Part shown: positions 10,676 to 38,601 of the stretch, in pieces
How positions within the stretch are numbered: position 1 is the stretch's first letter
Layout: each line of letters begins with the position of its first letter
Assembly (NCBI GenBank): GCA_005889405.1
Contig: VBFY01000008.1
Span: 1-50,089, forward strand
Reading direction: 5' to 3'
Source of the DNA: Chloroflexota bacterium
Lineage (GTDB): Bacteria > Chloroflexota > Limnocylindria > P2-11E
Length of the DNA: 50,089 bases
Position numbers and translations under genes: made by a program
Notes under the pieces: generated by a model
The model's database searches: none
Told to the model about the DNA's origin: nothing
The model's input: only the letters and a program-made list of their open reading frames with translations

Positions 10676-10700
10676 CGCCGCCATCCGACCCCTCCTGATC

Positions 10701-13609: not shown

Positions 13610-13615
13610 GACGCG

Positions 13616-16411: not shown

Positions 16412-16920
16412 GCGCTGCGCTGACGCAGTCGCAGATCGCCGCGTTGCTCGAGTCCACCTGCGCGCTCGTCGAAGGCGAGATCAACGCGCTCGGCGATGAG
16501 GGCTCGCAGTGGCATCTCGCTCCCGGTGAGTGGTGCGTGAACGAGTGCGTCGGGCACCTCATCGAGGCCGAGCGGCGCGGTTTCGCGGGCCGGATCCGCG
16601 ACATGATCGCAGCCAGACCGCTGGTCGCGTGGGATCAGGAGGCGGTCGCGCGCGAGCGCAACGACTGCGCGCGCATAAGCCTGAGCCTGTGGATGGAGTT
16701 CATGGGGCTCAGGCACGACAGCATCGCGCTCGTGCGGTCGCTCACCGCGGCGGACCTGGAGCGGAGCGGCGAGCATCCGAAGGTCGGCACGCTGCGCGTG
16801 AAGGATCTGCTGCAGGAGTGGGTCCATCACGATCGCAATCACACCAAACAGATCCTGTCCGTCGTGCAGGCGCGGGTGTACCCGCACATGGGGAACTCTC
16901 AGAAGTTCGTCGGTGAGTAG
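16408..16920 (+). CDS. DinB/YfiT-family protein
   Basis: A 170-residue four-helix-bundle protein of the DinB superfamily. The spaced histidines of the presumed metal site are visible: VNECVGHLIEAERR in the second helix and LLQEWVHHDRNHTKQI near the C-terminus. Some members are thiol-dependent transferases (bacillithiol or mycothiol); others have no known activity, and nothing here decides. ATG 16408 overlaps the kinase stop by four bases, tying it to the signalling operon. It converges on the minus-strand glycosyltransferase gene with a three-base gap. Confidence 0.88.
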   Translation: MSAALTQSQIAALLESTCALVEGEINALGDEGSQWHLAPGEWCVNECVGHLIEAERRGFAGRIRDMIAARPLVAWDQEAVARERNDCARISLSLWMEFMGLRHDSIALVRSLTAADLERSGEHPKVGTLRVKDLLQEWVHHDRNHTKQILSVVQARVYPHMGNSQKFVGE

Positions 16921-16923
16921 TAC

Positions 16924-19550: not shown

Positions 19551-19570
19551 GCGCGCATGCTAGGTGAGGC

Positions 19571-21699: not shown

Positions 21700-22332
21700 C
21701 TAGCGGCGGACGCGTGTCAATACGCCGGCAATGACGGCAATCGCCAGGATGGCGGCGCCCGCGATGATCAGCGACGACGAGCCGCCGCCGTCGCTCGACG
21801 CTGCTGGAGCGGCCGCCGTCTCGCTTGGCACCACGACCGCGACGGTCGGCGCGGCCGATGTCGCGATCGCGGTCGCCGTCGGCGTGGGACTCGTGGTCGG
21901 TGTCGGCGGGATCGTCGGCTCAACGGTCGGCACGGCTGTTGGCTGAGCGGTCGGCGCCACGGTACGCGCGACCGTCGGTGCGACTGTGGGCACGGGCGTG
22001 GCGACCGCTCGCACGATGACCGTCCCCATCATCGCCGCGCCGTGGATGCCACAGACGTAGGGAAACGTTCCGGCTGCGTTGAACGTCAGTGATCCGCTTT
22101 GGTTCTGCGATAACACCGGGGTCTGGCCCACGCCGTTCACCACCGCGCTATGTGCCGCCGCGTCTTTGTTGGTCCACGTCACCGTGTCGCCGACGCTGAT
22201 CGTCAGGCTGGCAGGCACGAAGGCGAATCCGGAGATGTTGACGCTCGCCGTCGCTCCAGCCGCGGTGGACGCGAGCGCGATGAACAGGAGAAGGGCCGCC
22301 AGGGCCGCAAGCCGCGCGGCCCGCGGTCTCAT
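21700..22332 (-). CDS. Anchored cupredoxin (blue copper) protein with PT-rich stalk
   Basis: A 210-residue exported protein. Residues 1-27 are a signal peptide. Residues about 28-108 form a plastocyanin/amicyanin-like cupredoxin domain: VGDTVTWTNKDAAAH61 supplies the first His, and the C-terminal loop FPYVC94GIH97GAAMM has Cys, His and Met101 or Met102 as the other type-1 copper ligands. Residues 111-158 are a proline/threonine stalk, and residues 187-207 are a hydrophobic helix ending in RVRR, so the domain is displayed outside the membrane. It would carry single electrons. The start overlaps the stop of the neighbouring paralogue (ATGA), indicating co-translation. Confidence 0.9.
   Translation of the reverse strand: MRPRAARLAALAALLLFIALASTAAGATASVNISGFAFVPASLTISVGDTVTWTNKDAAAHSAVVNGVGQTPVLSQNQSGSLTFNAAGTFPYVCGIHGAAMMGTVIVRAVATPVPTVAPTVARTVAPTAQPTAVPTVEPTIPPTPTTSPTPTATAIATSAAPTVAVVVPSETAAAPAASSDGGGSSSLIIAGAAILAIAVIAGVLTRVRR
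21859..22002 (-). repeat. Low-complexity Pro/Thr-repeat coding segment
   Basis: This encodes residues 111-158 of the first cupredoxin, a run of xPT triplets (VPT, APT, EPT, PPT). The DNA is correspondingly repetitive. Such stalks hold a domain away from the membrane and are frequently length-variable between strains. Confidence 0.8.
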
Positions 22333-22892
22333 CGGCGGCGGAGCAGCATGCCGGCGCGCGCGAGCAGGTACAGGACGAGCGCGCCGATGCCGGCGTAGAC
22401 GGCGGCGCGGCCTGTGTCGAGGCTCGGGTCTGTCGCTCCTGCCGGCAGCACCGGACCTTCGTCCGCGCCGCGGACGACGACACCGGCGCTCGGGATCGGG
22501 GTCGGGGTCGGGGGCACGAACGTCGGCGCGCCACCAGCCACCGCGGCGATCGCGCCCTCGGCGGGATTCACGACCACCACGCCCGACATGCTCTGACCGT
22601 GCAGGCCGCAGATGTACTTGTACGTGCCGGGTGCGATGAACCGCAGCGACGCGCTCTGGCCCAGTCCGAAGCTCTCCGTCTGCCCGAGCCCGGTGAGGAA
22701 GACGATGCTGTGCTGGGCGCTGTCGCGGTTCGTCCAGGTCACGGTGTCGCCGGCAGTGATGAACAGCACGTCAGGCCGGAACGCGAAGCCCGAGATCTCG
22801 ACGCTCTGCGTCGCCGCGGACGCGCTCGTCGCGAGCGCGAAGAACAAGAGGGCGCACGCGAACACACCGAAGCGAGCCGCTCTCATCCGCAC
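22329..22892 (-). CDS. Anchored cupredoxin (blue copper) protein, paralogue
   Basis: A 187-residue paralogue of the following cupredoxin. It has a signal peptide (to about residue 27), a cupredoxin domain with H61 in DSAQHSIVF and the copper loop YKYIC95GLH98GQSM102, a shorter proline-rich linker (about 120-135), and a C-terminal membrane helix (about 165-183) with a basic end. It is probably an extracytoplasmic electron carrier. GTG 22892 is chosen because it lies exactly six bases after a TATCGT -10 on this strand; ATG 22886 is an alternative. Both cupredoxin genes arose by tandem duplication and are co-transcribed. No copper oxidase or nitrite reductase is adjacent. Confidence 0.9.
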   Translation of the reverse strand: MRMRAARFGVFACALLFFALATSASAATQSVEISGFAFRPDVLFITAGDTVTWTNRDSAQHSIVFLTGLGQTESFGLGQSASLRFIAPGTYKYICGLHGQSMSGVVVVNPAEGAIAAVAGGAPTFVPPTPTPIPSAGVVVRGADEGPVLPAGATDPSLDTGRAAVYAGIGALVLYLLARAGMLLRRR

Positions 22893-25055: not shown

Positions 25056-25533
25056 TGCCGCACTCGCGCTCGTTCTGCTCGCGGCGTGCGGCGGCACGGC
25101 GGGCAGCGGCGGTGCCGTGAGTCCGTCGCCGTCGTCACGTTCGGTCGCGTTCACCGAAGTGGCGACGACCGCGCAGGCGCGGAACGACTCCGGCCCGACG
25201 CTCATCGTCGGAACGAGCGACGCGTCGCAGGCGACCATCCTCCGCCTCGTTCCGGGCGCGACCGCGTCGGGCGGCCGCGTGATGGTCGCCGTGTTCCAGG
25301 GTCAGAAGCACACCGGAGGCTATTCCGTCCACATCAACGCGATCGAGCGACGCGGCGATCAGCTCGTCGTGCGTGCGACCTTCGCGAGTCCCTCTCCCGG
25401 CGGGATCGTGACGCAAGTGCTCACGGCGCCCGCGCACGTCGTGTCGATCGCCGTTGCCGACGCGGTCGGCATCCGCGAAGCGATCCTGTTCGACGACCGC
25501 GGCTACGAGATCGCGCGCATGACGACCACCTAA
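24973..25533 (+). CDS. Lipoprotein with PrcB-C-like domain
   Basis: The mature part is clear. A lipobox (ALVLLAAC, Cys codon near 25087) is followed by a Ser/Pro linker and a domain of about 110 residues with TGGYSVHINAIERRGDQLVV, ATFASPSPGGIV and a TAPAHVVSI end. That is the pattern of the PrcB C-terminal family, linked to a secreted protease complex in Treponema. The start is unclear. The only canonical start near enough is ATG 24973, which gives an n-region of about 26 residues overlapping the phosphoesterase. ATC 25033 would give a normal signal peptide (AWRSASSAALALVLLAAC). No protease gene is adjacent. Function unknown. Confidence 0.6.
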   Translation: MTWPRCNDVSTRADFRRCSPIAWRSASSAALALVLLAACGGTAGSGGAVSPSPSSRSVAFTEVATTAQARNDSGPTLIVGTSDASQATILRLVPGATASGGRVMVAVFQGQKHTGGYSVHINAIERRGDQLVVRATFASPSPGGIVTQVLTAPAHVVSIAVADAVGIREAILFDDRGYEIARMTTT

Positions 25534-25559
25534 ACAACTTCTCAAAATGCTCGCGTCCC

Positions 25560-25584: not shown

Positions 25585-27660
25585 GTGAGCGACGAGCGCG
25601 ATCCGACATCCGCGGCAGACTCCGGACGGACGAGCCTCGAGCGTCGGGAAGAGCGGCGAGGACAGCGGCCCGGGGATCGCGTCGTGCGGATCGTGCGCCC
25701 GCCGGAGTTCAAGCGCACCACCGGTGGGTTCGTCGCCACCGACGCCGCGCTCGAGTCCGAGACCGGCGTCGGCCGCGCGTGGACGAACATCCGCCGCGCG
25801 TTGATCGGCCGGCGATTGGCCACGGCCGAGGAGCACAGCGAGCGCGTCTCGAAGAAGATCGGTCTCGCGATCTTCGCGTCGGACAACATCTCGTCCTCGG
25901 CCTACGCGACCGAGGAGGCGATGCGGATCCTCGCGCTCGCCGGTGTCGGCGCTGTCGCCGCCCTCACGCTGCCTCTGACGGTCGCGATCGTCGTCGTCCT
26001 GGCCATCGTGGTCGTGTCGTACGTGCAGGTCATCAAGGCCTATCCGAGTGGCGGTGGCAGCTATGTCGTCGCGAAGGAGAACCTCGGCGTGGTACCCGGC
26101 CTTGTCGCGGGGAGCGCGTTGCTCGTCGACTACTTCCTCACCGTCTCCGTGTCCGTCGCCGCGGGTGTGGCCGCGATCACGAGCGCCTTCCCCGATCTCC
26201 ATCCGGGGCGTGTCGGCATCGCGGTCGGCCTCGTCGTGCTCCTGACGATCGGAAATCTGCGCGGCATCCGCGAGGCCGGGAACATCTTCGCCGCGCCCAC
26301 GTACCTCTACGTCCTTGCGATCTTCGGACTCATCGCGATGGGTTTGTGGCGAGCCGTTTCCGGCGACCTCCCCAGCGCACCTGTGCCCATCCAGTCTTTC
26401 CTGCCGGCAGGCACGCAGCCGCTCACGTTGTTGCTGCTGTTGCGGGCATTCGCCTCTGGCTCGGTCGCGCTGACGGGCACCGAGGCCGTCGCCAACGGCG
26501 TACAGGCGTTCAAGAAGCCCGAGGCTCGCAATGCTCAGATCGTCCTCGTTGTGATGGGCTCGCTCTTCGGCACGATCTTTCTTTCGATCAGCTTCCTTGC
26601 AACATCGATCGGTATTCAGCCGGATCTGAGCGAGACCGAAACCGTCCTCAGTCTCCTGGCGCGCTCGCTCGTCGGCACGAGCTGGTATTTCTACCTCGTC
26701 CAGTTCTCGACGGCTCTGCTGCTGATCCTCGCCGCGAACACCGCGTTCAATGGGTTCCCACGCCTCGCCTCGATCATGGCGGTCGACCGCTTCATGCCCA
26801 GGCAGTTCGCGCAGCGCGGCGATCGGCTCGCGTTCAGCACGGGCATCGTGGCGCTCGCGCTCGTGTCTTCGTTCCTCATCGTCGCGTACGACGCGAGCGT
26901 CACCGGCCTCATTCCGCTCTACACCGTGGGCGTCTTCATCGCGTTCACGTTGTCCCAGGGGGGCATGGTCCGGAAGTGGCTGCGCGACCGAAGCCGCGGC
27001 TGGCAGCTCGGCACGGTGATCAATGGCGCCGGCGCGATCGCGACCGGTGTCGTCGCGATCGTCGTTGGGATCAGCAAGTTCCAAGTGGGCGCCTGGATGG
27101 TCATCGCGATCCTGCCGGTGCTCGTCGCCATGCTGTATGGGATCAACCGCCACTACCGTTCGATCGAGGACATCCTGCTCATCGCCACGACCGTCCCGGT
27201 GCGCGTGCGACCGACCGTGCCCAGGATCGTCGTACCCATCAGCCGAATCGACCGTGCTTCGCTGCGAGCGCTGAGCATCGCAGGCGGCCTCGGCGGTGAG
27301 GTCCACGCCGTGCACATCTCGTACGACGCCGATGGCGCGAAGGCGTTCAAGCGGCGGTGGCAAAGCGTCGTGGGCGAGACGATCGCGCTCGATACCATAA
27401 TCTCGCCATATCGTGCGCTCATGCCACCGCTGCTCAAGTATCTCGACGCGATCGACCGGGATGGCCCCGGACGGCCCGTCATCGTCGTCCTCGCGGAGTT
27501 CGTGCCGCGGCACTGGTGGGAAGCCCTGCTCCACAACCAGACCGCGCTGCTGTTGAAGCTACGGCTATTCGTACGGCGCAACACGGCCGTGCTCGACGTC
27601 CCGTATCACCTCGACGACCCCGAGCCGCTGGACGCGGAGGGTGAGCGACCGGGGCGATAA
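25585..27660 (+). CDS. KimA/YdaO-like APC-superfamily permease (probable K+ importer) 1
   Basis: A 691-residue protein. It has a charged cytosolic N-terminus (1-85) and about twelve membrane helices (about 90-520). The conserved APC/KUP-like motifs are IFASDNISSSAYATEEAMRI in helix 1, AYPSGGGSYVVAKENLG in helix 3, and TIGNLRGIREAGNIFAAPTY. A cytosolic C-terminal alpha/beta domain (about 545-680, from RIVVPISRIDRASLRALS) resembles a universal-stress fold. This is the architecture of KimA, a proton-coupled K+ importer controlled by c-di-AMP through its C-terminus. The trkA-type genes downstream support potassium transport, as with the permease beside ceoBC in mycobacteria. GTG 25585 follows GAGGGG. 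It overlaps the second copy by 20 bases. Confidence 0.85.
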   Translation: MSDERDPTSAADSGRTSLERREERRGQRPGDRVVRIVRPPEFKRTTGGFVATDAALESETGVGRAWTNIRRALIGRRLATAEEHSERVSKKIGLAIFASDNISSSAYATEEAMRILALAGVGAVAALTLPLTVAIVVVLAIVVVSYVQVIKAYPSGGGSYVVAKENLGVVPGLVAGSALLVDYFLTVSVSVAAGVAAITSAFPDLHPGRVGIAVGLVVLLTIGNLRGIREAGNIFAAPTYLYVLAIFGLIAMGLWRAVSGDLPSAPVPIQSFLPAGTQPLTLLLLLRAFASGSVALTGTEAVANGVQAFKKPEARNAQIVLVVMGSLFGTIFLSISFLATSIGIQPDLSETETVLSLLARSLVGTSWYFYLVQFSTALLLILAANTAFNGFPRLASIMAVDRFMPRQFAQRGDRLAFSTGIVALALVSSFLIVAYDASVTGLIPLYTVGVFIAFTLSQGGMVRKWLRDRSRGWQLGTVINGAGAIATGVVAIVVGISKFQVGAWMVIAILPVLVAMLYGINRHYRSIEDILLIATTVPVRVRPTVPRIVVPISRIDRASLRALSIAGGLGGEVHAVHISYDADGAKAFKRRWQSVVGETIALDTIISPYRALMPPLLKYLDAIDRDGPGRPVIVVLAEFVPRHWWEALLHNQTALLLKLRLFVRRNTAVLDVPYHLDDPEPLDAEGERPGR

Positions 27661-29722
27661 GGGGCCCAAGGAAGGCGCCGACGCGCCTTCACTCGAGGAG
27701 CGCGCCACCCACTCCGGATCGAAGATCGGCGACCGCCGCGTCCGGATCATCCGCCCCGCGGCCAGCGAGTTCCGTCGACGCGGCGGCCACTACGTCGCGA
27801 CGCCGCGCGTCGACGCGGCGCAGGGCCGGCTCGGACGTGTCTACGCGCGGGCGCGCCACATCCTGTTCGGCGCTCGTCTCACCTCCGAGGAGGAGGCCGG
27901 CGAGCGGCTCTCGAAGAAGACCGGTCTCGCGATCATGGCCTCGGACAACATCTCGTCCTCCGCCTACGCGACCGAGGAGGCGATGCGCGTCCTCGCGTTC
28001 GCCGGCGGGGCGGCGCTCGCGCTCACCATGCCGATCGCGATCGCGGTGTGCGTGGTGCTCGCCGTGGTCGTCCTCTCCGAGTCGCGCGTCATACGCGCCT
28101 ATCCGAACGGGGGCGGCAGTTACATCGTCGCCAAGGACAACCACGGCGTGCTCCCGGGGCTCGTCGCCGCGTCGGCCCTTCTCATCGACTACGTCCTGAC
28201 GGTCGCGGTGTCGTCGGCCGCGGGCGTGGCCGCGATCTCGAGCTTCGTTCCGGCGGTGCACGACCACCGCGTGCTGTGGTCGCTCGGCCTCATCGCGCTG
28301 CTCACGGTCGGCAACCTGCGCGGCATCCGCGAGGCCGGCGTGATCTTCGCCGCGCCGACCTACGTCTACGTCCTCTCGCTCCTGGGGCTCATCGGCTACG
28401 GTCTGTTCCGCGTCGCGTCCGGCGACATGCCCGTCGCCGTCTTACCGCGCGACGCCTTCGAGCCTGAGGGCATCGAGCCGCTGACGGCGCTCCTCGTCCT
28501 GCGCGCGTTCGCGTCCGGCTCCGTCGGTCTTACCGGAAGCGAGGCGATCGCCAACGGCGTTCCCAACTTCAAGCCACCAGAGTCGCGCAACGCCGTCATC
28601 ACGCTCGTCTGGATGGGGACTATTTTCGCCACGCTTTTCCTTGGGCTCACGTATCTCGCGACGCGTATCGGCATCGCGCCCGATCAATTCGAGTTCGAAA
28701 CGGTCAACAGCATGCTCACGCGATCGCTCGTGGGCGACGGCACGTTCTTCTATTACCTGGTGCAGATATCGACGGCGATCATCCTGCTGCTCGCCGCGAA
28801 CACCGGCTTCAGCGGCTTCCCGCGACTGGCGTCGGTGCTCGCCGACGACCGATTCATGCCGCGACAGTTCGCCTTCCGTGGCGAGCGCCTCGCCTTCTCG
28901 TTCGGGATCATCGCGCTGGCGCTCATGTCCGCGGCTGTCCTCGCCGCCTTCCACGGGAGCGTCACGGAGCTCGTTCCCCTGTACACGATCGGCGTTTTCG
29001 TGGCATTCACGTTGTCGCAGAGCGGCCTGGTGCGGCGCTGGTGGCGTCTCCGCAATCCCGGGTGGCGTCTGAGCATGGCCATCAACACCTTCGGCGCCAT
29101 CGTCACCGGCACCGTGCTCGTCGTCGTCGCTTTCACGAAATTCCTGTACGGCGCCTGGATGGTGCTGCTCGTGATGCCGATCCTCGTCGGACTGCTCTTT
29201 GCGATCAATCGTCATTACCGGACCGTGCACGACGCGCTTCTCTTGGACCGGCCGGACGAGCCCATTCCGGTGCTGAAGCCACCGGTCGTCCTGATCCCCG
29301 TCGCGCGGCTCGACCGCGCGACGTTGCAGGCGGTCGCTTTCGCGCGCTCGATCTCACCCAGCGTGCGCGCCGTGCACATCGCCAGCACGGCCGAGAGCGC
29401 CGAGGAGTTCGCGCGCCGCTGGCGGCGGTGGACGTCGGAGGTGCCGCTGGATGTCATCGAGTCGCCGTACCGTTCGCTCCTGCAGCCACTTCTGAAATAC
29501 ATCGAGCGCATCGACGAGCGCGACGATCGTCCGATCACCGTCGTGCTCGCGGAATTCGTGCCGCGCAACTGGTGGGAATGGATCCTTCACAGCCAAACGG
29601 CCCTGCGCCTCAAACTGTCGCTGCTCTTCCGTCCGAACACGATCGTGATCGACGTTCCCTATCACACAGAGGACCCGGGTCACGGCGTCACACCGCGCAA
29701 GCCCGAGGATTCATCGCAGTAG
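27641..29722 (+). CDS. KimA/YdaO-like APC-superfamily permease (probable K+ importer) 2
   Basis: A 693-residue tandem paralogue of the preceding permease with the same layout: basic N-terminus (about 1-90), helix 1 motif IMASDNISSSAYATEEAM, helix 3 motif AYPNGGGSYIVAKDNHG, about twelve helices in all, and the C-terminal universal-stress-like domain from about residue 546 (VVLIPVARLDRATLQAVAFA). The copies align along their whole length, so this is a true gene duplication with both retained. GTG 27641 follows GGAGG and lies inside the end of the first gene, giving translational coupling. The pair may form a heterodimer or have different K+ affinities; that is inference. Confidence 0.85.
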   Translation: MSDRGDKGPKEGADAPSLEERATHSGSKIGDRRVRIIRPAASEFRRRGGHYVATPRVDAAQGRLGRVYARARHILFGARLTSEEEAGERLSKKTGLAIMASDNISSSAYATEEAMRVLAFAGGAALALTMPIAIAVCVVLAVVVLSESRVIRAYPNGGGSYIVAKDNHGVLPGLVAASALLIDYVLTVAVSSAAGVAAISSFVPAVHDHRVLWSLGLIALLTVGNLRGIREAGVIFAAPTYVYVLSLLGLIGYGLFRVASGDMPVAVLPRDAFEPEGIEPLTALLVLRAFASGSVGLTGSEAIANGVPNFKPPESRNAVITLVWMGTIFATLFLGLTYLATRIGIAPDQFEFETVNSMLTRSLVGDGTFFYYLVQISTAIILLLAANTGFSGFPRLASVLADDRFMPRQFAFRGERLAFSFGIIALALMSAAVLAAFHGSVTELVPLYTIGVFVAFTLSQSGLVRRWWRLRNPGWRLSMAINTFGAIVTGTVLVVVAFTKFLYGAWMVLLVMPILVGLLFAINRHYRTVHDALLLDRPDEPIPVLKPPVVLIPVARLDRATLQAVAFARSISPSVRAVHIASTAESAEEFARRWRRWTSEVPLDVIESPYRSLLQPLLKYIERIDERDDRPITVVLAEFVPRNWWEWILHSQTALRLKLSLLFRPNTIVIDVPYHTEDPGHGVTPRKPEDSSQ

Positions 29723-29735
29723 ACTCCCGCGAGCC

Positions 29736-30164
29736 ATGCAGTTGAAACGCATTCTCGTGCCGCTCGCGGGCACGAGCGTTGACGTGGAGGTCCTCCGTGT
29801 AGCGATCGCCCTGGGGAAGCCCGCGAAGGCGGAGATCGTGGCCATCCACGTCATCGAGGTCCGGTGGAATCTGCCCCTTGACGCGGTCCTCGAGCCGGAA
29901 AGCGAGCGCGGCGAGGGCGTCCTCGACGACGCGGTGAAGGTCGCGGAGCAAGCGGGAGCACACATCGAGACGGAGCTCGTGCAAGCGCGTGAGGCCGCTG
30001 CCGCGATCATCGACACCGCGCGCGATCGAAAGTCCGACCTCATCGTTCTTGGGATGCCGTTCCGCAAGCGTTTAGGCAGGGTGTACGTTGGCAAGACAGT
30101 CCAGGGCGTCTACGTCGGAGCGCATTGTGCGGTGCTCGCGTATCGTCAGGAAGAGACACGGTGA
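29736..30164 (+). CDS. Universal stress protein (UspA family)
   Basis: A 142-residue single-domain Usp. It opens with KRILVPLAGTSVDVEVLRVA and keeps the nucleotide-binding pattern in part (SDLIVLGMPFRKRLGRVYVGK, then AHCAVLAYR). The usual G-2x-G-9x-G(S/T) ATP motif is altered, so ATP binding is uncertain. Its position between the permeases, whose C-termini have a similar fold, and the TrkA genes suggests that it senses nucleotide or stress for the potassium system. ATG 29736 lies ten bases after a TAGACT -10-like hexamer, giving a leader of only a few bases. Its stop overlaps the next gene in GTGA. Confidence 0.87.
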   Translation: MQLKRILVPLAGTSVDVEVLRVAIALGKPAKAEIVAIHVIEVRWNLPLDAVLEPESERGEGVLDDAVKVAEQAGAHIETELVQAREAAAAIIDTARDRKSDLIVLGMPFRKRLGRVYVGKTVQGVYVGAHCAVLAYRQEETR

Positions 30165-30631
30165 ACATCGTCATAGTCGGATGCGGGCGGGTCGGCGCGT
30201 TCCTCGCGGGCCAGCTCGACAAGGCTGGTCACGCGGTCACGATCGTCGACCTCGACCGCGGTTCGTTCGTCCACCTACCAGCGGATTTCGGCGGCACGAC
30301 GCTGCTCGGCAACGGCACCGACCTCGACGTGCTGCGGACCGCGGGCATCGACAAGGCCGATGCTATCTTCGCGCTCACGCAGGGTGACAACCGGAACCTC
30401 ATGGCCGCGCAGATCGCGCGCCAGATCTTCGGCGTCAAGCGCGTGATCGCGAAGGTCAACGATCCGATCCGCGCGGCGCTCTACCGTGCGCACGAGATCA
30501 GCACGGTCTCGCGGACCACGATCCTCGGCACGCTGCTCGAGGCGATGCTCATGGGCGACGCGGAGGTGGGAAAGGTGCTGATCGAGAAGTCGAAGGCGGC
30601 GGAGGCCGCGATGGCCGGGGAGCTGGGCTAG
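30161..30631 (+). CDS. TrkA/RCK N-domain protein without C-domain
   Basis: A 156-residue potassium-channel regulatory protein with only the Rossmann-fold RCK_N domain. The NAD-binding motif VGCGRVGAFLAGQL is at residues 6-19, the acidic end of strand 2 is in IVDLDRG, and the nucleotide-loop segment is LTQGDNRNLMAAQIA. The second RCK domain (TrkA_C) of about 80 residues is missing; the remaining 30 residues are helical. GTG 30161 overlaps the Usp stop (GTGA) with a purine-rich AGGAAGAGA ahead. It directly precedes a full-length partner, like ceoB-ceoC of mycobacteria, and probably forms mixed octameric rings with it. Confidence 0.88.
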   Translation: MNIVIVGCGRVGAFLAGQLDKAGHAVTIVDLDRGSFVHLPADFGGTTLLGNGTDLDVLRTAGIDKADAIFALTQGDNRNLMAAQIARQIFGVKRVIAKVNDPIRAALYRAHEISTVSRTTILGTLLEAMLMGDAEVGKVLIEKSKAAEAAMAGELG

Positions 30632-31288
30632 GTGTATTTCGTCATCGCCGGCGGCGGCGAGGTCGGCTTCCATCTCGCCAAGGCGCTCCTCGAGTCATCG
30701 CACGAGGTGATGCTCCTCGAGAGCGACCGCCGCCGTGCGCAGGTCATCGAGGAGAAGCTCGGCTCGGTGGTCCTCAACGCACCGGCCGACGAGGGACGCT
30801 ATCAGCTGGAGGCTGGGTGCCAGCGAGCCGATGCGGTCATCGCGGTGACCGGCGAGGATCCCGCGAACCTGATCATCTGTCAGCTCGCGAAGTGGAAATG
30901 CAACGTGCCGCGTGTGATCGCGCGCGTCAACGATCCGAAGAACGAGATCGTGTTCAAGGCGCTGGGCATCGACGAGACGATCTCGTCGACGCGCGTGATC
31001 ATGAACGTGATCGAGCAGGAGCTGCCGTCAGGGGGATTCCTTCCGCTCATGCCGCTGACCGGCTCCCACCTCGAGCTCATCGAGGCGGAGATCGCAGCGG
31101 GAACGCCCTCGGCGGGCAAATCGATCGGCTCACTGGGTTTGCCGGACGGCGCGGCGATCGGCGGCATCGTGCGCAAAGGCGCCGTCGTGCACGCCGACGA
31201 CACGACGAAGCTGCAAGTCGGCGATCGGATCGTCGTGCTCTCGCCCACGAAGGTCGAGGCCGACGTTCGGAAGGCGCTTTTCGGCTAA
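30632..31288 (+). CDS. TrkA-type potassium uptake regulator (RCK_N + RCK_C)
   Basis: A 218-residue cytosolic regulator. Residues 1-130 are RCK_N with the dinucleotide motif IAGGGEVGFHLAKAL and LLESDRRRAQVI. Residues about 140-218 are the TrkA_C ligand-binding domain (GSHLELIEAEIAAGTPSAG; KGAVVHADDTTKLQVGDRIVVL), the domain that binds c-di-AMP in several KtrA/TrkA proteins. GTG 30632 follows the preceding stop directly, so the two regulators are co-translated. It would gate the KimA-like permeases or a Trk/Ktr channel elsewhere; no TrkH/KtrB gene is in the window. It converges with the minus-strand C-domain gene with a four-base overlap. Confidence 0.92.
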   Translation: MYFVIAGGGEVGFHLAKALLESSHEVMLLESDRRRAQVIEEKLGSVVLNAPADEGRYQLEAGCQRADAVIAVTGEDPANLIICQLAKWKCNVPRVIARVNDPKNEIVFKALGIDETISSTRVIMNVIEQELPSGGFLPLMPLTGSHLELIEAEIAAGTPSAGKSIGSLGLPDGAAIGGIVRKGAVVHADDTTKLQVGDRIVVLSPTKVEADVRKALFG

Positions 31289-31728
31289 GCCCCGGCGCGG
31301 TCGCCCTGGCCGTCGCTGGCCAGGTGGTACGGCACGTCGACGACAACCGTGTTCGGCCTGAAGAACAGGCGGACCTTCAGCCGCAGAGCGGTCTGGTCGT
31401 GGAGCACGTATTCCCAGAAGTGATGCGGGACGAACTCCCCGAGCACGATCGTGATCGGCCGTTCGTCATCCTGGCGCGCTCGTGCATCGAAGTACGCGAG
31501 CAGCCGCGGGATGAGCGCGCGATACGGCGATTCGATCACGACCAGCGCGATGCCATCGTCGCGTGCGCGCCAGCCTGCGCGCATCCGCTCGGCAGCGGCC
31601 ACGCTATCCGCGATATGGACGGCCGTGACGTCCGATGAGATCGCGCGGGCGAACCCCAGCGCGCGCAGCGCCGCTCGATCGAGGCGCGCGACCGGCACGA
31701 TCACCTGCGGCACCGCCATGCGCTGCAC
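31285..31728 (-). CDS. Stand-alone homologue of the permease C-terminal domain
   Basis: A 147-residue soluble protein that matches the cytosolic C-terminal domains of both KimA-like permeases upstream. Matching blocks include VIVPVARLDRAALRALGFAR, TAVHIADS, VVIESPYRALIPRLLAYFDA, ITIVLGEFVPHHFWEYVLH and LFFRPNTVVVDVPYHLA. No membrane helix is present. It could act as a free regulator, competing for ligand or for the transporter interface. GTG 31728 and ATG 31719 are both possible starts; the frame is open to a stop near 31791. It lies 153 bases after kdpE on the same strand; that gap shows no other gene. Confidence 0.75.
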   Translation of the reverse strand: MQRMAVPQVIVPVARLDRAALRALGFARAISSDVTAVHIADSVAAAERMRAGWRARDDGIALVVIESPYRALIPRLLAYFDARARQDDERPITIVLGEFVPHHFWEYVLHDQTALRLKVRLFFRPNTVVVDVPYHLASDGQGDRAGA

Positions 31729-31881
31729 GAGATCGGGCGACGGCAGTACGGCCGAGTCGTCGGCGACCTCTGCATCCTCCTGCGTAGCCAGGTCTCAAGC
31801 GTGCGGCGCGACTGCTCAACGCCGGGTCATCGGAATGGGCCGCGCGCTCAAAGTTCGCTCAACACGGGCGGCCTCGCGGAG

Positions 31882-32580
31882 TCAGGCCTCCTCGGTGAGC
31901 AGGCGGTACCCGATCCCGGGCTCAGTGGCGATGTATCGGGGCTTCTGCGGATCCTGTTCGAGCTTCTTGCGAAGGCGTGCCACGTAGACGTGCAGGTAGT
32001 GGTCTTCGTCACCGTATTCCGGTCCCCAGACCTCCTGGAGCAACATCGCGTCGGTCACGACCCGGTCCGCATGGCGCACCAGCGCCGTAAGGAGCGCGTA
32101 CTCCGTCGGCGTCAGATGCAGCTCTTCGCCATCGACCGTTACGCGCCGGTGTTCGACGTCGACGGTGAGGCCGCGCGAGCGGAACACGGGCTCGTCGGTC
32201 CCCGACCGGAGCGTGTGCCGCAGCGCGACGCGGATCCGCGCCAGGAGCTCCTGGACGCCGAACGGTTTCGTCAGGTAATCGTCGGCGCCGAGGTCGAGCG
32301 CGCGCACCTTGTCGCGTTCCGCGCCGCGCGCCGATAACACGATGATCGGTGCGCGCCCTCGTCCGCGGAGAGCGCGGATGAGATCGAGACCATCCAGGTC
32401 GGGAAGGCCGAGGTCGAGCAGGATGAGGTCCGGATGCGATTCCGCGCGTTCGAGCGCTTCGCTCCCCGAAACCGCGACCTCGACGCGAAAGCCCCGGCTC
32501 CCCAGATTCGCGCGTACGGCACGGACGATCGCGGGCTCGTCATCGACGAGCAGGATGCGCGCGCCGGTGGCCGGACTCAT
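31882..32580 (-). CDS. kdpE: KdpE-type OmpR-family response regulator
   Basis: A 232-residue response regulator. The receiver has the acidic pair in LLVDDEPAIV, phospho-acceptor D56 (DLILLDLGLPDLDG) and the Lys of YLTKPFG. The C-terminal winged helix shows the KdpE-specific end VWGPEYGDEDHYLHVYVARL followed by RKKLEQDP. KdpE activates the KdpFABC potassium pump in known systems, but no kdpFABC is in the window, so its target may be the permease/TrkA genes on the opposite strand or a distant locus. ATG 32580 overlaps the kdpD stop by four bases. Confidence 0.92.
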   Translation of the reverse strand: MSPATGARILLVDDEPAIVRAVRANLGSRGFRVEVAVSGSEALERAESHPDLILLDLGLPDLDGLDLIRALRGRGRAPIIVLSARGAERDKVRALDLGADDYLTKPFGVQELLARIRVALRHTLRSGTDEPVFRSRGLTVDVEHRRVTVDGEELHLTPTEYALLTALVRHADRVVTDAMLLQEVWGPEYGDEDHYLHVYVARLRKKLEQDPQKPRYIATEPGIGYRLLTEEA

Positions 32581-34139
32581 GTCTTCGCGGCGGTCGTGTG
32601 CGTTCTCACGGGTTGTTCGATCGGCAAGGTGAAGCGGAATACCGCACCGCCCTCCGCGCTGTTGCGTACGGAGATGCGGCCGCCGTGCGCCTCGACGAGA
32701 CCGCGCGCGACGGCGAGTCCGAGACCCGTGCCGCGAGGCGTTCCGCCGGAGGGACCGCGGAAGAACGGCTCGAAGACCCGATCGAGCGCGTCGTTCGGCA
32801 CGCCCGGCCCATCGTCCGAGACTTCGACGATCGCCTCCGCACCCGTGACCTGCGCGCTGATCACGATGGCCGTTCCCGGACGCGTGTGGCGCGCGGCATT
32901 CTCGATGAGGTTCGAAAGGACCTGGTCGATCTCGACGTAGTCGAGCGAGATCGGCGGAAGGTCTTCGGGCACATGCACTTCGACCGGGTGGTCCTGTGTG
33001 AGCGGTCGCAGGCGTCCGACCACGTCGTCGATGAGGGCGGCGAGGTCGTACCAGCTCCGCTCGGGGTGCAGCGTTCCGGACTCCATCCGGGAGAGATCCA
33101 GCAGATTGCTGACGATCCGGCTGAGCCGACGCGCCTCGGTCTCGATGTCCGAGAGGAAGCTCTCGCGCTCAGCCTCCGTCCAACGTACGTCGGTCTGCCG
33201 CAGGCTGCCCGCGGACGCGACGATCGAGGCGAGCGGCGTGCGCAGGTCGTGCGACACGGCACCGAGCAGAGCGTTCTTGAGCTCGTCCGTGCGCCGCAGG
33301 ATCTCCGCCTCCGTCGCGCGCCGACGCAGTCGTGAGCGCTCGATCGCGCCAGCGAGCTGTGTGGCGACCGAGCTAAGGATGCGATCGTCCGCAGGGTGGG
33401 GCCGAGGCGATGCGCGCACGATCGCGAGCGTGCCGGTCCGCCGCCCGCCTGCCTTAAGCGGCACGGCGTGCACCCGCTCATCGCGTGGGGCGCTGCCTGG
33501 GCCGTGAGGGTTCATCACGCGGATCCAACGCGCCCCGGATCCAGTCGCGGAACGAGGGGAGGGGATCCAGGCGGCGAGCGAGCCGATGTTGGCAGCAGCG
33601 AGCGCCGAAGCGTCACCCGCGATCGTCCGCTGCGGGAGACCATCGTCTTCGAGCTCGACCATCACGCCTGTGACGCCAAGGCCTTCGCGCAGGCGTTCCG
33701 TCACCGACGCCAATGCGGTTTCGAGATCGGGCTCGCCGAGCACGCGAGCGACCTCGAACATGAGCGTGGCGTCACGTGCGCGATCCGCGGCTTCATGCGC
33801 ACGGTCGCGCTGGTCCGCGGCGAGCTGACTGGTGATCACCGCGGTGACGAGGAACAGCACGAGTGCGAACCACTCTTTGGGGTCGCCGACGCTGAGGGTG
33901 TGCGTCGGCTCGACGAAGAACCAGTTGAACGCGAGGAACGACGCGATCGACGCTGTGATCGCCGGGCCGCGGCCGAGTCGGGTAGCGGCGCCCAGCACCG
34001 CCATGAGATAGAGCATCGAGATATTCGCCACCTGCGCGCGGGCCTCGATAACGCCGATGACGACACTGACCAGCACGACTGCCGCGAGCGCGGCCGCATA
34101 TCCACGAAGAGGAGCGATGCGCCCCATCGGAGCGAGCAT
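32577..34139 (-). CDS. KdpD-like histidine kinase lacking the N-terminal sensor domains
   Basis: A 520-residue membrane kinase. Residues 1-110 are the four-helix KdpD membrane domain (DUF4118; FNWFFVEPTHTLSVGDPKEW is characteristic). Residues about 125-265 form a GAF-like domain. HisKA has H297 (LLGAVSHDLRTPLASI) and the ATPase domain has N414 (LIENAARH), D442/D443-G-P-G and TGLGLAVARGL. The about 370-residue N-terminal KdpD sensor plus Usp domain of E. coli KdpD is absent. ATG 34139 is used; ATG 34127 is possible. It follows the Hsp70-like gene by eight bases and couples to kdpE. Sensor input may come from separate Usp or C-domain proteins nearby; this is inference. Confidence 0.9.
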   Translation of the reverse strand: MLAPMGRIAPLRGYAAALAAVVLVSVVIGVIEARAQVANISMLYLMAVLGAATRLGRGPAITASIASFLAFNWFFVEPTHTLSVGDPKEWFALVLFLVTAVITSQLAADQRDRAHEAADRARDATLMFEVARVLGEPDLETALASVTERLREGLGVTGVMVELEDDGLPQRTIAGDASALAAANIGSLAAWIPSPRSATGSGARWIRVMNPHGPGSAPRDERVHAVPLKAGGRRTGTLAIVRASPRPHPADDRILSSVATQLAGAIERSRLRRRATEAEILRRTDELKNALLGAVSHDLRTPLASIVASAGSLRQTDVRWTEAERESFLSDIETEARRLSRIVSNLLDLSRMESGTLHPERSWYDLAALIDDVVGRLRPLTQDHPVEVHVPEDLPPISLDYVEIDQVLSNLIENAARHTRPGTAIVISAQVTGAEAIVEVSDDGPGVPNDALDRVFEPFFRGPSGGTPRGTGLGLAVARGLVEAHGGRISVRNSAEGGAVFRFTLPIEQPVRTHTTAAKT

Positions 34140-34147
34140 ACGCGGCG

Positions 34148-35524
34148 CTAACGCGCGAGCGCGGCTTCTTCGACGCCCGGCATCGCGAGGCCAGACGCGA
34201 CGCTGGTGAACGTCGCCGCGTCGCGGACGCGCGCGTTCGGGAAGCGACGCGCGAGGAGCGCGCGGAAGGCTGGGATCGCGCTCGAGCCACCCGTGGTGAC
34301 GACTTCCGCGATGTCCGTCGAGCTCACCGTCGCTCGCACCAGGACGTCGGTGAGCAGCGCGTCCGTCTCGGTGAGCAGGGTCTCGATGAGGCGCTCGAAG
34401 CGACCGCGCGTCAGGCGCGCGTCGACGTCGACGGCGGCGTGGTGATACGAGAGGATCGCGGCGGGCGCGCTCGAGAGCGCGCACTTGGTGGCGTCCGCGG
34501 TCATGAAGATCTCGTACCCGAGCTGCAGCTCGATCGCGCTCCGTAGCGCGGCGAGCTCCCGCTTGGGCGCGCCCTGGCGGACGAGATCGTCGAGCGCCTC
34601 GAGCAGCGGCTTCTCGTTGAGCGCCGAAAGCGCGTGCCAGTCATGGAGCGCGTTCACGATGAACGCGGGAAGCCGGAGACGCTTCGGGCCCCACGTCGCG
34701 CGCGAGCCGAGCTGTGGCGCGACGACGTCATCGATGAGCCGTTCGGTGCAGCGGTCGCCGCCGATGTTGCGGCCGGCCGTCGCGAGCACCTCGAGCGCGC
34801 CGACGCTCTCGCGGCGCACGACCGCGAGGTCGAGCGTGCCTCCGCCGAAATCGAAGACGAGCGTCAGTCCCGGCGCGACCTCGGCCGCGTGAGCTGCTCC
34901 GACCGGCTCGAAGGCGAAGCGCACCTCACCGAAGCCGGCGAGCTCGGCCGCTCGACGCATACGCGTCACGGCGCGAGCCTCGGCAGCGGCGCCCCCGACG
35001 TATTCGACGGGACGGCCGATCGTGATCTCCGCGGGCATCTCTCCGACGAGCTCGTGCACCCGCTCGCGGACGTGGGCAAGGACTACCGCGATGAGATCCT
35101 CGAGCCCACGTGCTTCGCCGAACACGTTCGTGCTCACGTCGAGCGGGTCCCCGAGGAACGTCTTCAGCGCTTGGAACAGGCGGCCTGGCGACGACGTGTC
35201 GGTGTAGATCATCGCCTCGACCGTCTTCTGACGCGGATTCGACGACTCGAGGCGGATGCCGAGTGGCTTGAACTCCCGCGTGACCGGCCCGCGCTGCCGG
35301 TTGTCCGAAAGATAGGCCTCGATCGCGGGCCGCCCGACGAGGCTCGAGCCGTCGCGACGGACGTAGAGCACCGTCGGCATCGCCGCGCCCGCGAGCGGGT
35401 CGATGGGCAGCACCGTCGAGTGCTCGCCGTCCCAGACGGCGACCGAGGTGTTGGAGGTGCCGAAGTCGAGGCCGAAGCGCACGGGCCGCGATTGTCGCAT
35501 CAGCATGCGTCGCCTGCGGCTCAT
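34148..35524 (-). CDS. Hsp70-like ATPase without substrate-binding domain (YegD-like)
   Basis: A 458-residue actin/Hsp70-fold ATPase. Phosphate-1 is RFGLDFGTSNTSVAVW, phosphate-2 is LVFDFGGGTLDLAVV, and the adenosine motif is VVTTGGSSAIPAFRALLARR. The C-terminal substrate-binding domain of DnaK is absent, as in YegD-type proteins whose function is not settled. Start choice is unsure: ATG 35524, 35506 and 35500 are all in frame; the domain begins only after the last. It is first in a minus-strand operon with kdpD, kdpE and probably the stand-alone permease C-domain, which hints at a role in the same stress response. Confidence 0.87.
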   Translation of the reverse strand: MSRRRRMLMRQSRPVRFGLDFGTSNTSVAVWDGEHSTVLPIDPLAGAAMPTVLYVRRDGSSLVGRPAIEAYLSDNRQRGPVTREFKPLGIRLESSNPRQKTVEAMIYTDTSSPGRLFQALKTFLGDPLDVSTNVFGEARGLEDLIAVVLAHVRERVHELVGEMPAEITIGRPVEYVGGAAAEARAVTRMRRAAELAGFGEVRFAFEPVGAAHAAEVAPGLTLVFDFGGGTLDLAVVRRESVGALEVLATAGRNIGGDRCTERLIDDVVAPQLGSRATWGPKRLRLPAFIVNALHDWHALSALNEKPLLEALDDLVRQGAPKRELAALRSAIELQLGYEIFMTADATKCALSSAPAAILSYHHAAVDVDARLTRGRFERLIETLLTETDALLTDVLVRATVSSTDIAEVVTTGGSSAIPAFRALLARRFPNARVRDAATFTSVASGLAMPGVEEAALAR

Positions 35525-35582
35525 CGCAGGGTCGAGGCCGCCGGGCGTGTCACCGCCGGCGACCTCGCTGCGACGTGTTGGC

Positions 35583-36683
35583 CTAGCGCGCGGCCAAACC
35601 CGCCGCGCCCGCGGGAATGGTCGCGCCGTCGATCCGCATGAGGTGTCCATCCGCCGTGACGCGGAATGCGCTGATGGTCCTCGTGCCGCCGTCGACGGTG
35701 TACAGGAACTGGCTGTTGCGGCTGAGAGCCATGTCTGTGGTATGCGCGGCCGTGCTGTGCGCGGCCTGCGCGGCCACGAGCGTCAGGCTCCCGTCCTGAT
35801 CGATCGCGAAGCTGGAGATCGAGTCGCTCGCGGCGTTGGCCGTGAACGCGTAGCGGCCATTGCCGGTCACGACGAGCCAGCACGCAGCTGCCTGTGTCGT
35901 TGGTGCCGACGCGGTCACCGTGGTGAGCGTGCCGTTCGCCGCGAGCTGATACGACGACGCGGCGCTGAGGCCCGCCGGAGCGCCCGCGGCCTCCGAGACG
36001 AAGAGTTCATCGCGCAGGCCGAAGGCGAAACCGAAAGGCGTTGAGCCTGCTGACGGGTAGCTCGTCGGCGCGCCGGCGACGCCGCCTGCTCCGACGATGA
36101 AGGTCTCGAGCGTGCTCGTCCCCTTGTCGGTCACAACGAGCGCGTTGCCTGACGGCGCGAACTGGATCTGCGCCGGGGCGCTGCCGAGCAGGGTGTGCGT
36201 CGATCCCGTGACCGGTATGAGCGCGCCGTTCACCGACGAAAAACCCGAGATGGTCCGCGTGCCGGCGTTGAGCACGTACACGAGGCCACCGTTCGCGGTG
36301 ACGCTGATCGGCTGCGTGCCGCCCGAGGCGACGCGGTCGGTCAGAGTCAGAGCATCACCGTCGATCGCGAAGGCCGAGACGTCATTGCTGCCGGCATTGA
36401 CGGCGTAGAGCCAGGCGCCGTTGTCGTTGACGGTCACAGCGCCCTGCGAGCCGAGGCCGGACCCGCTGCCGAGGCCGCCTGTCGGATACGTCCCGCTCCA
36501 AGAGAGTGCGCCGGATGCCGAGCGCGCGTAGGCAAGGATCGCGTTCCCGGACGCGGCATTCGTTTCGGTGTAGACGTTGCCCGCGCTACCGCTTGCCGCG
36601 GCTGCGGGTCCGGTCGCAATGCCGCCGAAGATCAGCGTGGCAAGCGTCGCGTACGCGAGGATGCGTGTGAGGATGCGCGCCAT
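35583..36683 (-). CDS. Exported lactonase-like seven-bladed beta-propeller
   Basis: A 366-residue secreted protein. A signal peptide (residues 1 to about 31, ILTRILAYATLATLIFGGIA, ending AAA-ASG) precedes propeller blades of the 6-phosphogluconolactonase/YbhE family: WLYAVNAGSNDVSAFAIDGD, GLVYVLNAGTRTISGFSS, RYAFTANAASDSISSFAIDQ and FLYTVDGGTRTISAFRV. A cytosolic lactonase role is unlikely because it is exported; it may bind or hydrolyse an extracellular lactone or serve as a surface protein. ATG 36683 has an ideal GGGAGG site six bases upstream. Its promoter region carries a Pho-box-like repeat shared with the divergent two-component genes, so phosphate control is possible. Confidence 0.83.
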   Translation of the reverse strand: MARILTRILAYATLATLIFGGIATGPAAAASGSAGNVYTETNAASGNAILAYARSASGALSWSGTYPTGGLGSGSGLGSQGAVTVNDNGAWLYAVNAGSNDVSAFAIDGDALTLTDRVASGGTQPISVTANGGLVYVLNAGTRTISGFSSVNGALIPVTGSTHTLLGSAPAQIQFAPSGNALVVTDKGTSTLETFIVGAGGVAGAPTSYPSAGSTPFGFAFGLRDELFVSEAAGAPAGLSAASSYQLAANGTLTTVTASAPTTQAAACWLVVTGNGRYAFTANAASDSISSFAIDQDGSLTLVAAQAAHSTAAHTTDMALSRNSQFLYTVDGGTRTISAFRVTADGHLMRIDGATIPAGAAGLAAR

Positions 36684-36746
36684 GATGGTCCTCCCATTTT
36701 CGGTTCGCCTTCGTTGAGGGCGTGCAACGCATCCTCCGGGGCGACC

Positions 36747-36817
36747 GTGACAGTGCGATGACGCTCGCCGCGGTCGCACGCCCGTCGTGTCACGCGAATG
36801 TCATCGAACGCTGTCAC
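36747..36817. promoter_or_regulatory. Pho-box-like direct repeats in a divergent promoter
   Basis: On the minus strand GCGTCAT-cgca-CTGTCAC (36764-36747) has the 7+4+7 layout of a PHO box, with its GTCA elements 11 bases apart. On the plus strand TGTCAC (36788), TGTCAT (36799) and TGTCAC (36812) recur at 11- and 13-base steps just before the response-regulator start. OmpR/PhoB regulators bind such 11-base direct repeats. The elements face both divergent genes. The rest of 36684-36826 shows nothing else. Confidence 0.5.
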
Positions 36818-36826
36818 CGTGCGAAC

Positions 36827-37540
36827 ATGCTGGACGTGGCGACTGCGGCGGAGCACGCGCCGATCCTCGTGGTCGACGATGACCCCAAGATCCTCGAGCT
36901 CGTCCGCGTCTACCTCGAGCGCGAGGGCTTGGCTGTCATCACGGCGCCTGACGGGATCGCGGCCCTTGCCGCGATCCGACAGCGCGCGCCTCGCGCCGTC
37001 GTCCTGGATCGGATGCTGCCCGGTCTCGACGGTCTCGCGGTGATACGCGCGGCCCGCGCCGATTCGAGCGTGCCGATCCTCATGCTCTCCGCCCGCGGCG
37101 CAACGGCGGACCGCATCTCCGGCATCGCGACCGGTGCGGACGATTACCTGCCCAAACCGTTCTCACCCGCGGAGCTCGTCGTCCGCCTCAAGGCCCTCCT
37201 GCGACGGTCGACGCCGACCGACGGTCCGACCGGCCGGCTCGCCCTCGCCGACCTGGTCATCGACCCGGACCGGCATCAGGTCGTCCGCGGAGAGGAGCGC
37301 ATGACCCTCACCCATTCAGAGCTCGCCTTGTTGCTCGCGCTCGTCAACGCGCGCGGACGGATCGTGACCCGCGAAGCCCTGCTCGATTCGCTGTATGGCA
37401 AGAGCGAGGCGGAGGTCATGGACCGCACGGTCGACGTTTACATCCGAAGGCTGCGCGAGAAGCTGGGGGACGATCCCGACAAACCTCGATACATCGCCAC
37501 GGCGCGACGTGCCGGGTACCGCGCGCTCATCGACGAATGA
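36827..37540 (+). CDS. OmpR/PhoB-family response regulator
   Basis: A 237-residue regulator. The receiver has DDD at residues 17-19 (ILVVDDDPKI), phospho-acceptor D61 (AVVLDRMLPGLDG) and Lys in YLPKPFSPAEL. The winged helix (about 140-235) ends with MDRTVDVYIRRLREKLGDD and ARRAGYRAL, as in PhoB/PhoP/MprA types. ATG 36827 is chosen because the receiver begins ten residues later; the open frame further upstream covers the regulatory repeats. The stop overlaps the kinase start (ATGA). It probably autoregulates through the Pho-box-like repeats ending ten bases before its start. The phosphate assignment rests on those repeats only. Confidence 0.93.
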   Translation: MLDVATAAEHAPILVVDDDPKILELVRVYLEREGLAVITAPDGIAALAAIRQRAPRAVVLDRMLPGLDGLAVIRAARADSSVPILMLSARGATADRISGIATGADDYLPKPFSPAELVVRLKALLRRSTPTDGPTGRLALADLVIDPDRHQVVRGEERMTLTHSELALLLALVNARGRIVTREALLDSLYGKSEAEVMDRTVDVYIRRLREKLGDDPDKPRYIATARRAGYRALIDE

Positions 37541-38601
37541 GAGGCATGGCCGCGCAGATCGCGCTCGCGGTGCTCGTCGTTGCCGCGACGGTCGCCGTCG
37601 TGCTCGCCGTCGGCACGCTGGGCTTCGCCAGTCGCTCTTTCGCGCAGCTGATGGTCGACCACGGCGAGACTTTGGCCAGCGCGCAGGCGATGTTCGCCGA
37701 CGGGGTCGTGCGGTTCTTCGTCGGGGCGCTCGTGGTGGCTGCGATCGGAAGCGTCGTTCTCGCTGCCGCTCTTGGACGTCGCGTCGCCGCCCCGCTCCGA
37801 GAGATGAGCGGCGCCGCGCGGCTCGTGGCGGAGGGTGACTACGCCGTGCGCGTCGAGCGGCGCGGCCCGGAGGAGATCCGTTCGCTCGCTGACTCTTTCA
37901 ACCAGATGGCGGCGCAGATCGGCGAGCAGGAGCGCATGCGTCGCGAGTTCGTTTCCAACGCGGCCCACGAGCTGCGCACACCACTCACGAACCTTCAAGG
38001 GTATCTCGAGGCGCTGCGCGACGGCGTTCTCACCGCTGACCACGCGACCTTCGTGTCGCTGCACGAAGAAGTGGACCGCCTGGTAAGACTGTCGCGCGCA
38101 CTCGATGCTCTGGCAGAGGGCGACACCGCCCCGCGCGGGAGCGAGGCGATGCGCGAGATCGACATCCGCGAGGCGATCGCATCGGCCGTCGAGCTGCACT
38201 CGGCCGCGCTCGAACGAAGCGGTCTCCGTCTCGATCTGGAGCTGCCGCCGACACTCCGCGGTCGGGCGGACCCCGACCGTCTCGACCAGGTCCTCGCCAA
38301 CCTCCTCCAGAACGCGCTGCGCTACACACCCAACGGAGGACGGGTCAGCGTCGAGGCCGAGCAGCGCGCATCCGACATCCTCGTGACGGTCTCGAACACC
38401 GGAGGTGGCATCCCGCCCGAGGACCTTCCGCACGTGTTCGAGCGCTTCTACCGCGTCGACAAATCCCGTGACCGATCCAGCGGTGGAGCCGGCATCGGCC
38501 TCGCGATCGTGAAATCTTTGGTGGAGCTTGGCGGCGGCCGCGTCGGCGCGGAGTCCGGCGGTGGCCGGACGCGGTTCTGGTTCAGCCTGCCAGGCGACTG
38601 A
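37537..38601 (+). CDS. Membrane sensor histidine kinase (BaeS/PhoR-like)
   Basis: A 354-residue kinase. Two membrane helices (about 7-29 and 58-80) enclose an extracytoplasmic loop of only about 28 residues. A HAMP domain (about 81-133), HisKA with H144 (FVSNAAHELRTPLTNL) and an ATPase domain with N259 (NLLQNALRYTPNGG) and the G-box GAGIGLAIVKSL follow. The D-box reads VSNTGGGIPPEDL, with Asn287 where Asp is usual, a variant seen in some kinases. The short loop makes direct ligand sensing unlikely; input through a partner is more plausible. It pairs with the preceding regulator by ATGA overlap. Its last codons form the first copy of a 32-base tandem repeat. Confidence 0.93.
   Translation: MRGMAAQIALAVLVVAATVAVVLAVGTLGFASRSFAQLMVDHGETLASAQAMFADGVVRFFVGALVVAAIGSVVLAAALGRRVAAPLREMSGAARLVAEGDYAVRVERRGPEEIRSLADSFNQMAAQIGEQERMRREFVSNAAHELRTPLTNLQGYLEALRDGVLTADHATFVSLHEEVDRLVRLSRALDALAEGDTAPRGSEAMREIDIREAIASAVELHSAALERSGLRLDLELPPTLRGRADPDRLDQVLANLLQNALRYTPNGGRVSVEAEQRASDILVTVSNTGGGIPPEDLPHVFERFYRVDKSRDRSSGGAGIGLAIVKSLVELGGGRVGAESGGGRTRFWFSLPGD

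Follow-up and report, generated by a model that had tools for sequence, protein, structure and literature searches.

KdpDE is usually seen as a switch reserved for the Kdp ATPase. We analyzed a 50,089-nucleotide stretch (the window: positions 1 to 50,089 of contig VBFY01000008.1, assembly GCA_005889405.1) from a Chloroflexota bacterium of the class Limnocylindria, order P2-11E, which carries a potassium-uptake island. The island resembles the KdpDE-kdpFABC systems of Escherichia coli and mycobacteria in its KdpE-like regulator, the C-terminal half of its kinase, and its 11-bp direct-repeat operator, but the order is without the pump, the kinase is without the KdpD and universal stress protein (Usp) domains, and the linked, boxed genes encode KimA permeases. 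Compared with KimA (YdaO) of Bacillus subtilis (6s3k/8b70), KimA1 and KimA2 of the window are alike in fold, in K+ and proton residues, and in the pocket for cyclic di-adenosine monophosphate (c-di-AMP); they differ in an N-terminal extension of 60 to 70 residues, a tandem arrangement, and an adjacent RCK pair, and a KdpE-type box replaces the c-di-AMP riboswitch. The split RCK pair itself is like CeoBC (two TrkA proteins) of Mycobacterium and TM1088A/B of Thermotoga (3l4b), although the short first protein here has no RCK_C domain; Thermotoga has TrkH, whereas this order does not, and actinobacterial contigs have an RCK pair by KimA. On the genomic evidence below, we put the probability of a pump-less KdpDE system controlling KimA importers at about 0.78.

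Within its genome (3.05 Mb; completeness, 96%), the window makes up contig C6; the nearest named relatives of this genome are Chloroflexi metagenome-assembled genomes (MAGs) (e.g., JACQAT010000001.1, a contig of G024, and the CF_143 and UBA4730 assemblies). KimA1-KimA2-Usp-TrkA1-TrkA2 form a tight operon on the plus strand, in which KimA1 overlaps KimA2, Usp overlaps TrkA1, and TrkA1 abuts TrkA2. On the minus strand, convergent with the operon, lie the Hsp70-like, kinase, KdpE, and stand-alone domain genes. Every gene that an initial annotation, made from the letters of the window, had listed (i.e., tandem KimA-like permeases, Usp, a split TrkA pair, a permease C-domain, KdpE, and a truncated KdpD) was present. 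The features are as follows:

25530..25546 (-): candidate KdpE-type box TTTGAG-AAGTT-GTTTAG, 38 bp upstream of where KimA1 starts; same position boxed in G014 and G015
25585..27660 (+): KimA1, predicted K+/H+ symporter, 691 aa; PDB match to B. subtilis KimA; K+, proton, and c-di-AMP residues conserved
27641..29722 (+): KimA2, second KimA copy; 20-base overlap with KimA1
29736..30164 (+): Usp; PF00582, E = 1e-15; faint match to the Usp part of NF038185 (KdpD-like non-kinase sensor)
30161..30631 (+): TrkA1, RCK_N domain only (PF02254); resembles the short partner of the split pair TM1088A/B
30632..31288 (+): TrkA2, RCK_N and RCK_C (PF02254 and PF02080)
31285..31728 (-): stand-alone KimA cytosolic C-domain, 147 aa; left over from a third KimA, with purifying selection acting on it
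~31814-31819: extra half-site TTGAGC in the KdpE/C-domain intergenic region
31847..31863 (-): candidate KdpE-type box GTTGAG-CGAAC-TTTGAG, between KdpE and the C-domain
31882..32580 (-): KdpE-like response regulator; best NCBIfam model KdpE, best PDB match 4kny
32577..34139 (-): KdpD-like histidine kinase, DUF4118-GAF-HisKA-HATPase; ATG at 34139 is the most likely start
34148..35650 (-): Hsp70-like gene; its end lies 8 bases ahead of the start of the kinase

Linkage of KdpDE to KimA in genomes without the Kdp pump

We surveyed an order sample of 29 genomes and a class sample of 55 genomes within a 400-genome phylum sample. KdpA was detected in none of the 29 genomes, the window assembly included, and in that assembly KdpB gave a single model match of 199 bits, far under the 528-bit cut-off. 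The absence of kdpFABC remarked on in the initial annotation thus extends to the whole assembly and, for KdpA, to the whole order sample. Neither the KdpD sensor domain (PF02702) nor a separate KdpD sensor protein was found in the window genome. The TrkH/KtrB membrane subunit was likewise absent from all 29 genomes (a Thermotoga control was positive for TrkH); in the class sample, counts from the listings gave KimA in 53 of 55 genomes and TrkH in 3 of 55.

The KimA-Usp-TrkA1-TrkA2 core was conserved across the order. The kinase gave 21 matches in 20 genomes of the order, and in 20 of the 21 it adjoined KimA or the stand-alone KimA domain, so that the neighborhood survey proposed with the initial annotation returned strong co-occurrence in relatives. 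The exception was G003, in which the kinase lay on a separate contig, while on another contig the domain came right after the end of KdpE. The kinase-KdpE pair was convergent with and downstream of the operon in genera g1 and g2, codirectional and directly upstream in G020 and G023, divergent in G022 and G015:C26, and at another locus in G001:C74, G005:C213, and G019:C7. The KdpDE-linked KimA copies largely formed one clade (support, 99/99), even when relocated; in G007, G008, and G020, the KimA adjacent to the kinase belonged to another clade. Given this varied arrangement and the other-clade copies, the association persists and is not a frozen block. The alternative regulatory circuit suspected in the initial annotation is therefore matched by a pump-less KdpDE-KimA association that is conserved across genera, at different loci and in different orientations.

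Ten genomes outside the order also had KdpDE beside KimA, 3 of which had kdpA, and in two (L138 and L093) pump genes were in the same cluster. The cluster of L138, a Limnocylindrales MAG (7512-20870), reads kinase-KdpE-KimA-kinase-KdpE-response regulator-KdpA-KdpB-KdpC-KdpD sensor protein, i.e., two DUF4118 kinases, two KdpE-like regulators, a lone receiver, KdpABC, and a separate non-kinase KdpD sensor; in L093, kdpA was on the other side of the kinase. The split KdpD of L138 has the same kinase half by KimA and KdpE as the window, whose genome differs in having no PF02702 sensor protein that we could find. A simple reading is that KimA joined the Kdp regulon and that the order would later have lost the pump and the sensor half of KdpD.

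Candidate KdpE operator boxes

The intergenic regions leading from KdpE to KimA or to the stand-alone domain contained direct repeats (TTGAGC-N5-TTGAGC), the half-sites of which (TTGAG[C]) all pointed to KimA, with none reversed. Half-site spacings were 11, 21/22, 32/33, and 43/44 bp, corresponding to two boxes three helical turns apart. The strict pattern occurred 21 times in 15 of 20 such regions (2.9 kb) compared with once elsewhere in the sequence scanned (555 kb; mean over shuffled sequences, 0.007), and that single site sits just downstream of a KdpE gene. Across the 29 whole genomes, 25 of 62 strict sites were within modules, and the held-out modules G005:C213 and G019:C7, which were not used in defining the motif, carried the box. 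In the 50-kb window, the relaxed pattern KTTKASN5KTTKAS had two matches where 0.04 would be expected, one ahead of KimA1 and one ahead of the stand-alone domain. Outside the order, an 11-bp pair lay ≤400 bp upstream of 6 of 10 KdpDE-linked KimA genes compared with 5 of 69 unlinked ones (p = 3e-4), and strict half-sites in the linked intergenic regions were spaced (within a 5- to 45-bp range) by 11, 20/21, 32, and 43 bp only. The boxes were placed downstream of KdpE and directly before KimA; none preceded the kinase. A sigma-70 promoter scan gave nothing useful in the GC-rich island region.

This geometry is that of footprinted KdpE sites. E. coli KdpE binds TTTATA-N5-TTTACA, with an invariant leading TT (PMC3264566). 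The minimal site of Mycobacterium smegmatis KdpE is CCGTAAAGAAACCATCAAGGCC, in which its authors saw no similarity (PMC5401905); on our own reading, its other strand, TTGATG-GTTTC-TTTACG, would fit the same TT-led N5 rule. The candidate sites here have the KdpE layout of two 6-bp half-sites starting with TT and separated by 5 bp. Three computed lines, namely linkage, the boxes in those intergenic regions, and recurrence in other lineages, together support the suggestion of the initial annotation that KdpDE may control the permeases instead of a pump.

One contig labelled Steroidobacteraceae (L086) encodes a KimA 52% identical to that of the window along with a KdpDE pair, and has a perfect TTGAGC-N5-TTGAGC box; it is possibly a misbinned Chloroflexota contig.

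KimA-type permeases, the RCK pair, and the stand-alone domain

The sole PDB match of KimA1 was KimA of B. subtilis (E = 3e-143; residues 67-676). We compared residues listed for K+ coordination, gating, trans-inhibition, and proton coupling (PMC6994465) and for the c-di-AMP pocket (R337, P479, H579, N580, Q581, and S582; PMC10284832). In every full-length copy in the order, D36, Y43, D117, T121, E233, and Y377 were invariant and position 230 was Thr or Ser, and the pocket was kept in both KimA1 (R, P, H, N, Q, T) and KimA2 (R, P, H, S, Q, T). Judged by sequence, KimA1 and KimA2 are full-length KimA-type K+/H+ symporters. The initial annotation had read both as KimA-like and had named amino acid specificity as the finding that would speak against it; what was found were KimA residues. 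Some KdpDE-linked (third) copies carried R337H, mostly with S582A (L078, L079, L045, L046, and L069), and others had an intact pocket (L073 and L066). Because the two substitutions recur in several third copies, weaker c-di-AMP control is predicted for the KdpE-driven copy, which may be less c-di-AMP sensitive than the core copies.

Diadenylate cyclase was encoded in 29 of 29 genomes of the order and a c-di-AMP riboswitch was present in 9, with none in the window or elsewhere in its genome; of the two c-di-AMP elements to be looked for according to the initial annotation, only the cyclase is thus found in this organism. In a same-genus relative, a riboswitch (G015:C32:14508-14644; L060) is followed by an open reading frame that by eye resembles trehalose-phosphatase, which would suggest c-di-AMP control of osmolytes in this group.

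TrkA2 matched TrkA (4j9u) and TM1088B (3l4b), and the pair resembles the Thermotoga TM1088A/B split. The c-di-AMP-binding RCK_C signature given in PMC10117811, [IL][IL]xxDxRx5N[IL][IL], was present in 0 of 55 RCK proteins of the order. KimA and TrkA_C had both been put forward as c-di-AMP targets; the kept pocket is consistent with this for KimA, and the missing signature does not support it for TrkA_C here. Of 80 named KimA loci, 16 had the gene order KimA-Usp-RCK-RCK, and four more loci had an RCK pair close to KimA but no Usp; the contigs include Actinomycetota, Acidimicrobiia, and Armatimonadota. In Streptomyces venezuelae, the locus tag of the KimA-like Vnz_27465 is next to that of the RCK_C protein Vnz_27460 (PMC10117811). 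Among the papers searched, the only one naming both CeoB and TrkH was a drinking-water biofilm study. The RCK-KimA link is conserved, and we hypothesize that the RCK pair gates KimA.

The 147-aa stand-alone product was 81% identical to the C-terminus of a full-length third KimA at the same position in G016, of the same genus. In the DNA alignment, the boxed promoter and the C-terminal part remain and ~1.65 kb between them has been lost. By this alignment, the domain goes back to a third KimA whose membrane part was lost and whose boxed promoter was kept. The C-domain of the initial annotation is therefore present, not as an odd fragment but as the C-terminus of a protein that is full length in relatives. 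Among 16 genomes of two genera, 10 have the stand-alone form and 6 have KimA at or beside that place. The stand-alone copy of G010 is nearest to the third KimAs of its own genus (71%); going by these best hits, the membrane part would have been lost at least twice. An AlphaFold model of the domain (pLDDT, 79) best matched c-di-AMP-bound KimA (8b70). Its pocket reads P, I, H, D, Q, T, with N580D, and is eroded in several relatives. The domain may act as a soluble regulator of KimA or of the kinase.

The Hsp70-like neighbor of the kinase is kept in relatives of two genera, and the two genes are probably on one transcript. Near the island, another gene pair (36722-38601), for an OmpR-type regulator and a histidine kinase, is apparently unrelated to it. 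Elsewhere in the window, two tandem genes (21700-22892) encode, by eye, secreted proteins that are cupredoxin-like and have a membrane anchor at the C-terminus.

Proposed circuit and alternative explanations

We propose that this bacterium, having neither KdpFABC nor TrkH/KtrB, would take up potassium by KimA-type K+/H+ symporters, i.e., KimA1 and KimA2 here and also a third copy in relatives. The KdpD-like kinase, without the usual cytoplasmic sensor half, would phosphorylate the KdpE-like regulator, which would bind paired TTGAGC-like half-sites 11 bp apart and control KimA genes, presumably activating them at low K+. Its targets would be the KimA1-KimA2-Usp-TrkA1-TrkA2 operon in this genus and, across the order, the third KimA or the stand-alone C-domain. 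c-di-AMP would shut KimA1 and KimA2.

Several points weigh against this circuit. The strict pattern fails in 5 of the 20 intergenic regions; the KimA1 box is weaker and was found in three genomes only; and a kinase match is absent from 9 of 29 genomes, all <90% complete, although one of them (G012) has fragments. In that genome (L076:5777-7113), the kinase gene is broken into several frames and KdpE and the stand-alone domain are intact. In addition, the motif was first recognized in regions that were later counted, so the independent tests (i.e., held-out modules, whole genomes, and other lineages) weigh most. The kinase protein also lacks the cytoplasmic domains of classical KdpD (neither PF02702 nor a Usp sensor domain is present) and scores far under the KdpD equivalog cut-off of NCBIfam, and the regulator, at 245 bits, is below the 325-bit KdpE cut-off. 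Together with the general binding of direct repeats by OmpR-family proteins (PMC3264566), these scores would fit a general OmpR-type system located here by chance, with repeats serving autoregulation or another regulator. We consider this improbable, given that the pair stays with KimA when locus and orientation change, that the boxes precede KimA rather than the kinase, and that the linkage recurs in other lineages. Furthermore, KdpE was the best regulator model by ~50 bits. The best PDB match of the regulator was E. coli KdpE (4kny; E = 3e-63); of the DNA-contact positions, R200 and T215 are retained and R193 is His.

Pfam offers no name for the permeases but AA_permease_2; against the full-length KimA match and the invariant ion residues, an amino acid transporter is scarcely credible, and we rejected this reading. 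What the RCK pair and Usp regulate is more evenly balanced. RCK proteins gate TrkH/KtrB channels and exporters, and we know of no contact between KimA and RCK proteins, so another K+ channel or an efflux antiporter is a serious candidate, at somewhat under even odds. TrkH, the only channel family to which this count applies, is however missing throughout the 29 genomes of the order and from 52 of the 55 genomes in the class sample, and the pair recurs by KimA in 16 plus 4 of the 80 named loci. As for the stand-alone domain, its origin by internal deletion, the drift of its c-di-AMP residues in several genomes, and a constraint weaker than that on neighboring genes would suit a functionless, decaying leftover. 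The ratios of nonsynonymous to synonymous substitution rates (dN/dS), however, were 0.21 (G000-G013; p = 1e-5) and 0.14 (G003-G006; p = 3e-11) for pairs in which both members are stand-alone, indicating purifying selection; the frames are intact in 10 of the 16 genomes and the boxed promoter is retained. We therefore disfavor a pseudogene, which is unlikely, if slightly less so than a chance OmpR-type neighbor. More speculatively, and with odds clearly against the full combination, KimA may be the ion-conducting partner of the RCK pair ("Trk without TrkH" in Chloroflexota and Actinomycetota), and the domain, kept under the KdpE promoter as the membrane part was repeatedly lost, may be a soluble regulator that responds to c-di-AMP and either partners KimA or exerts feedback on the sensor-less kinase.

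These results support a real and conserved pump-less KdpDE-KimA circuit, the most novel part of which is the stand-alone KimA domain, kept under selection. The literature passages on KdpDE and KimA that we consulted contained no description of KdpE control of KimA. If true, a KdpDE regulon would have been switched over from a pump driven by ATP to an importer driven by protons, with a testable operator. Since the order is without both textbook membrane subunits, one may ask which proteins are the targets of TrkA/CeoBC-type RCK proteins in bacteria without TrkH. A transporter turned more than once into a free regulatory domain that keeps the same promoter would be an uncommon way for a new regulator to arise.

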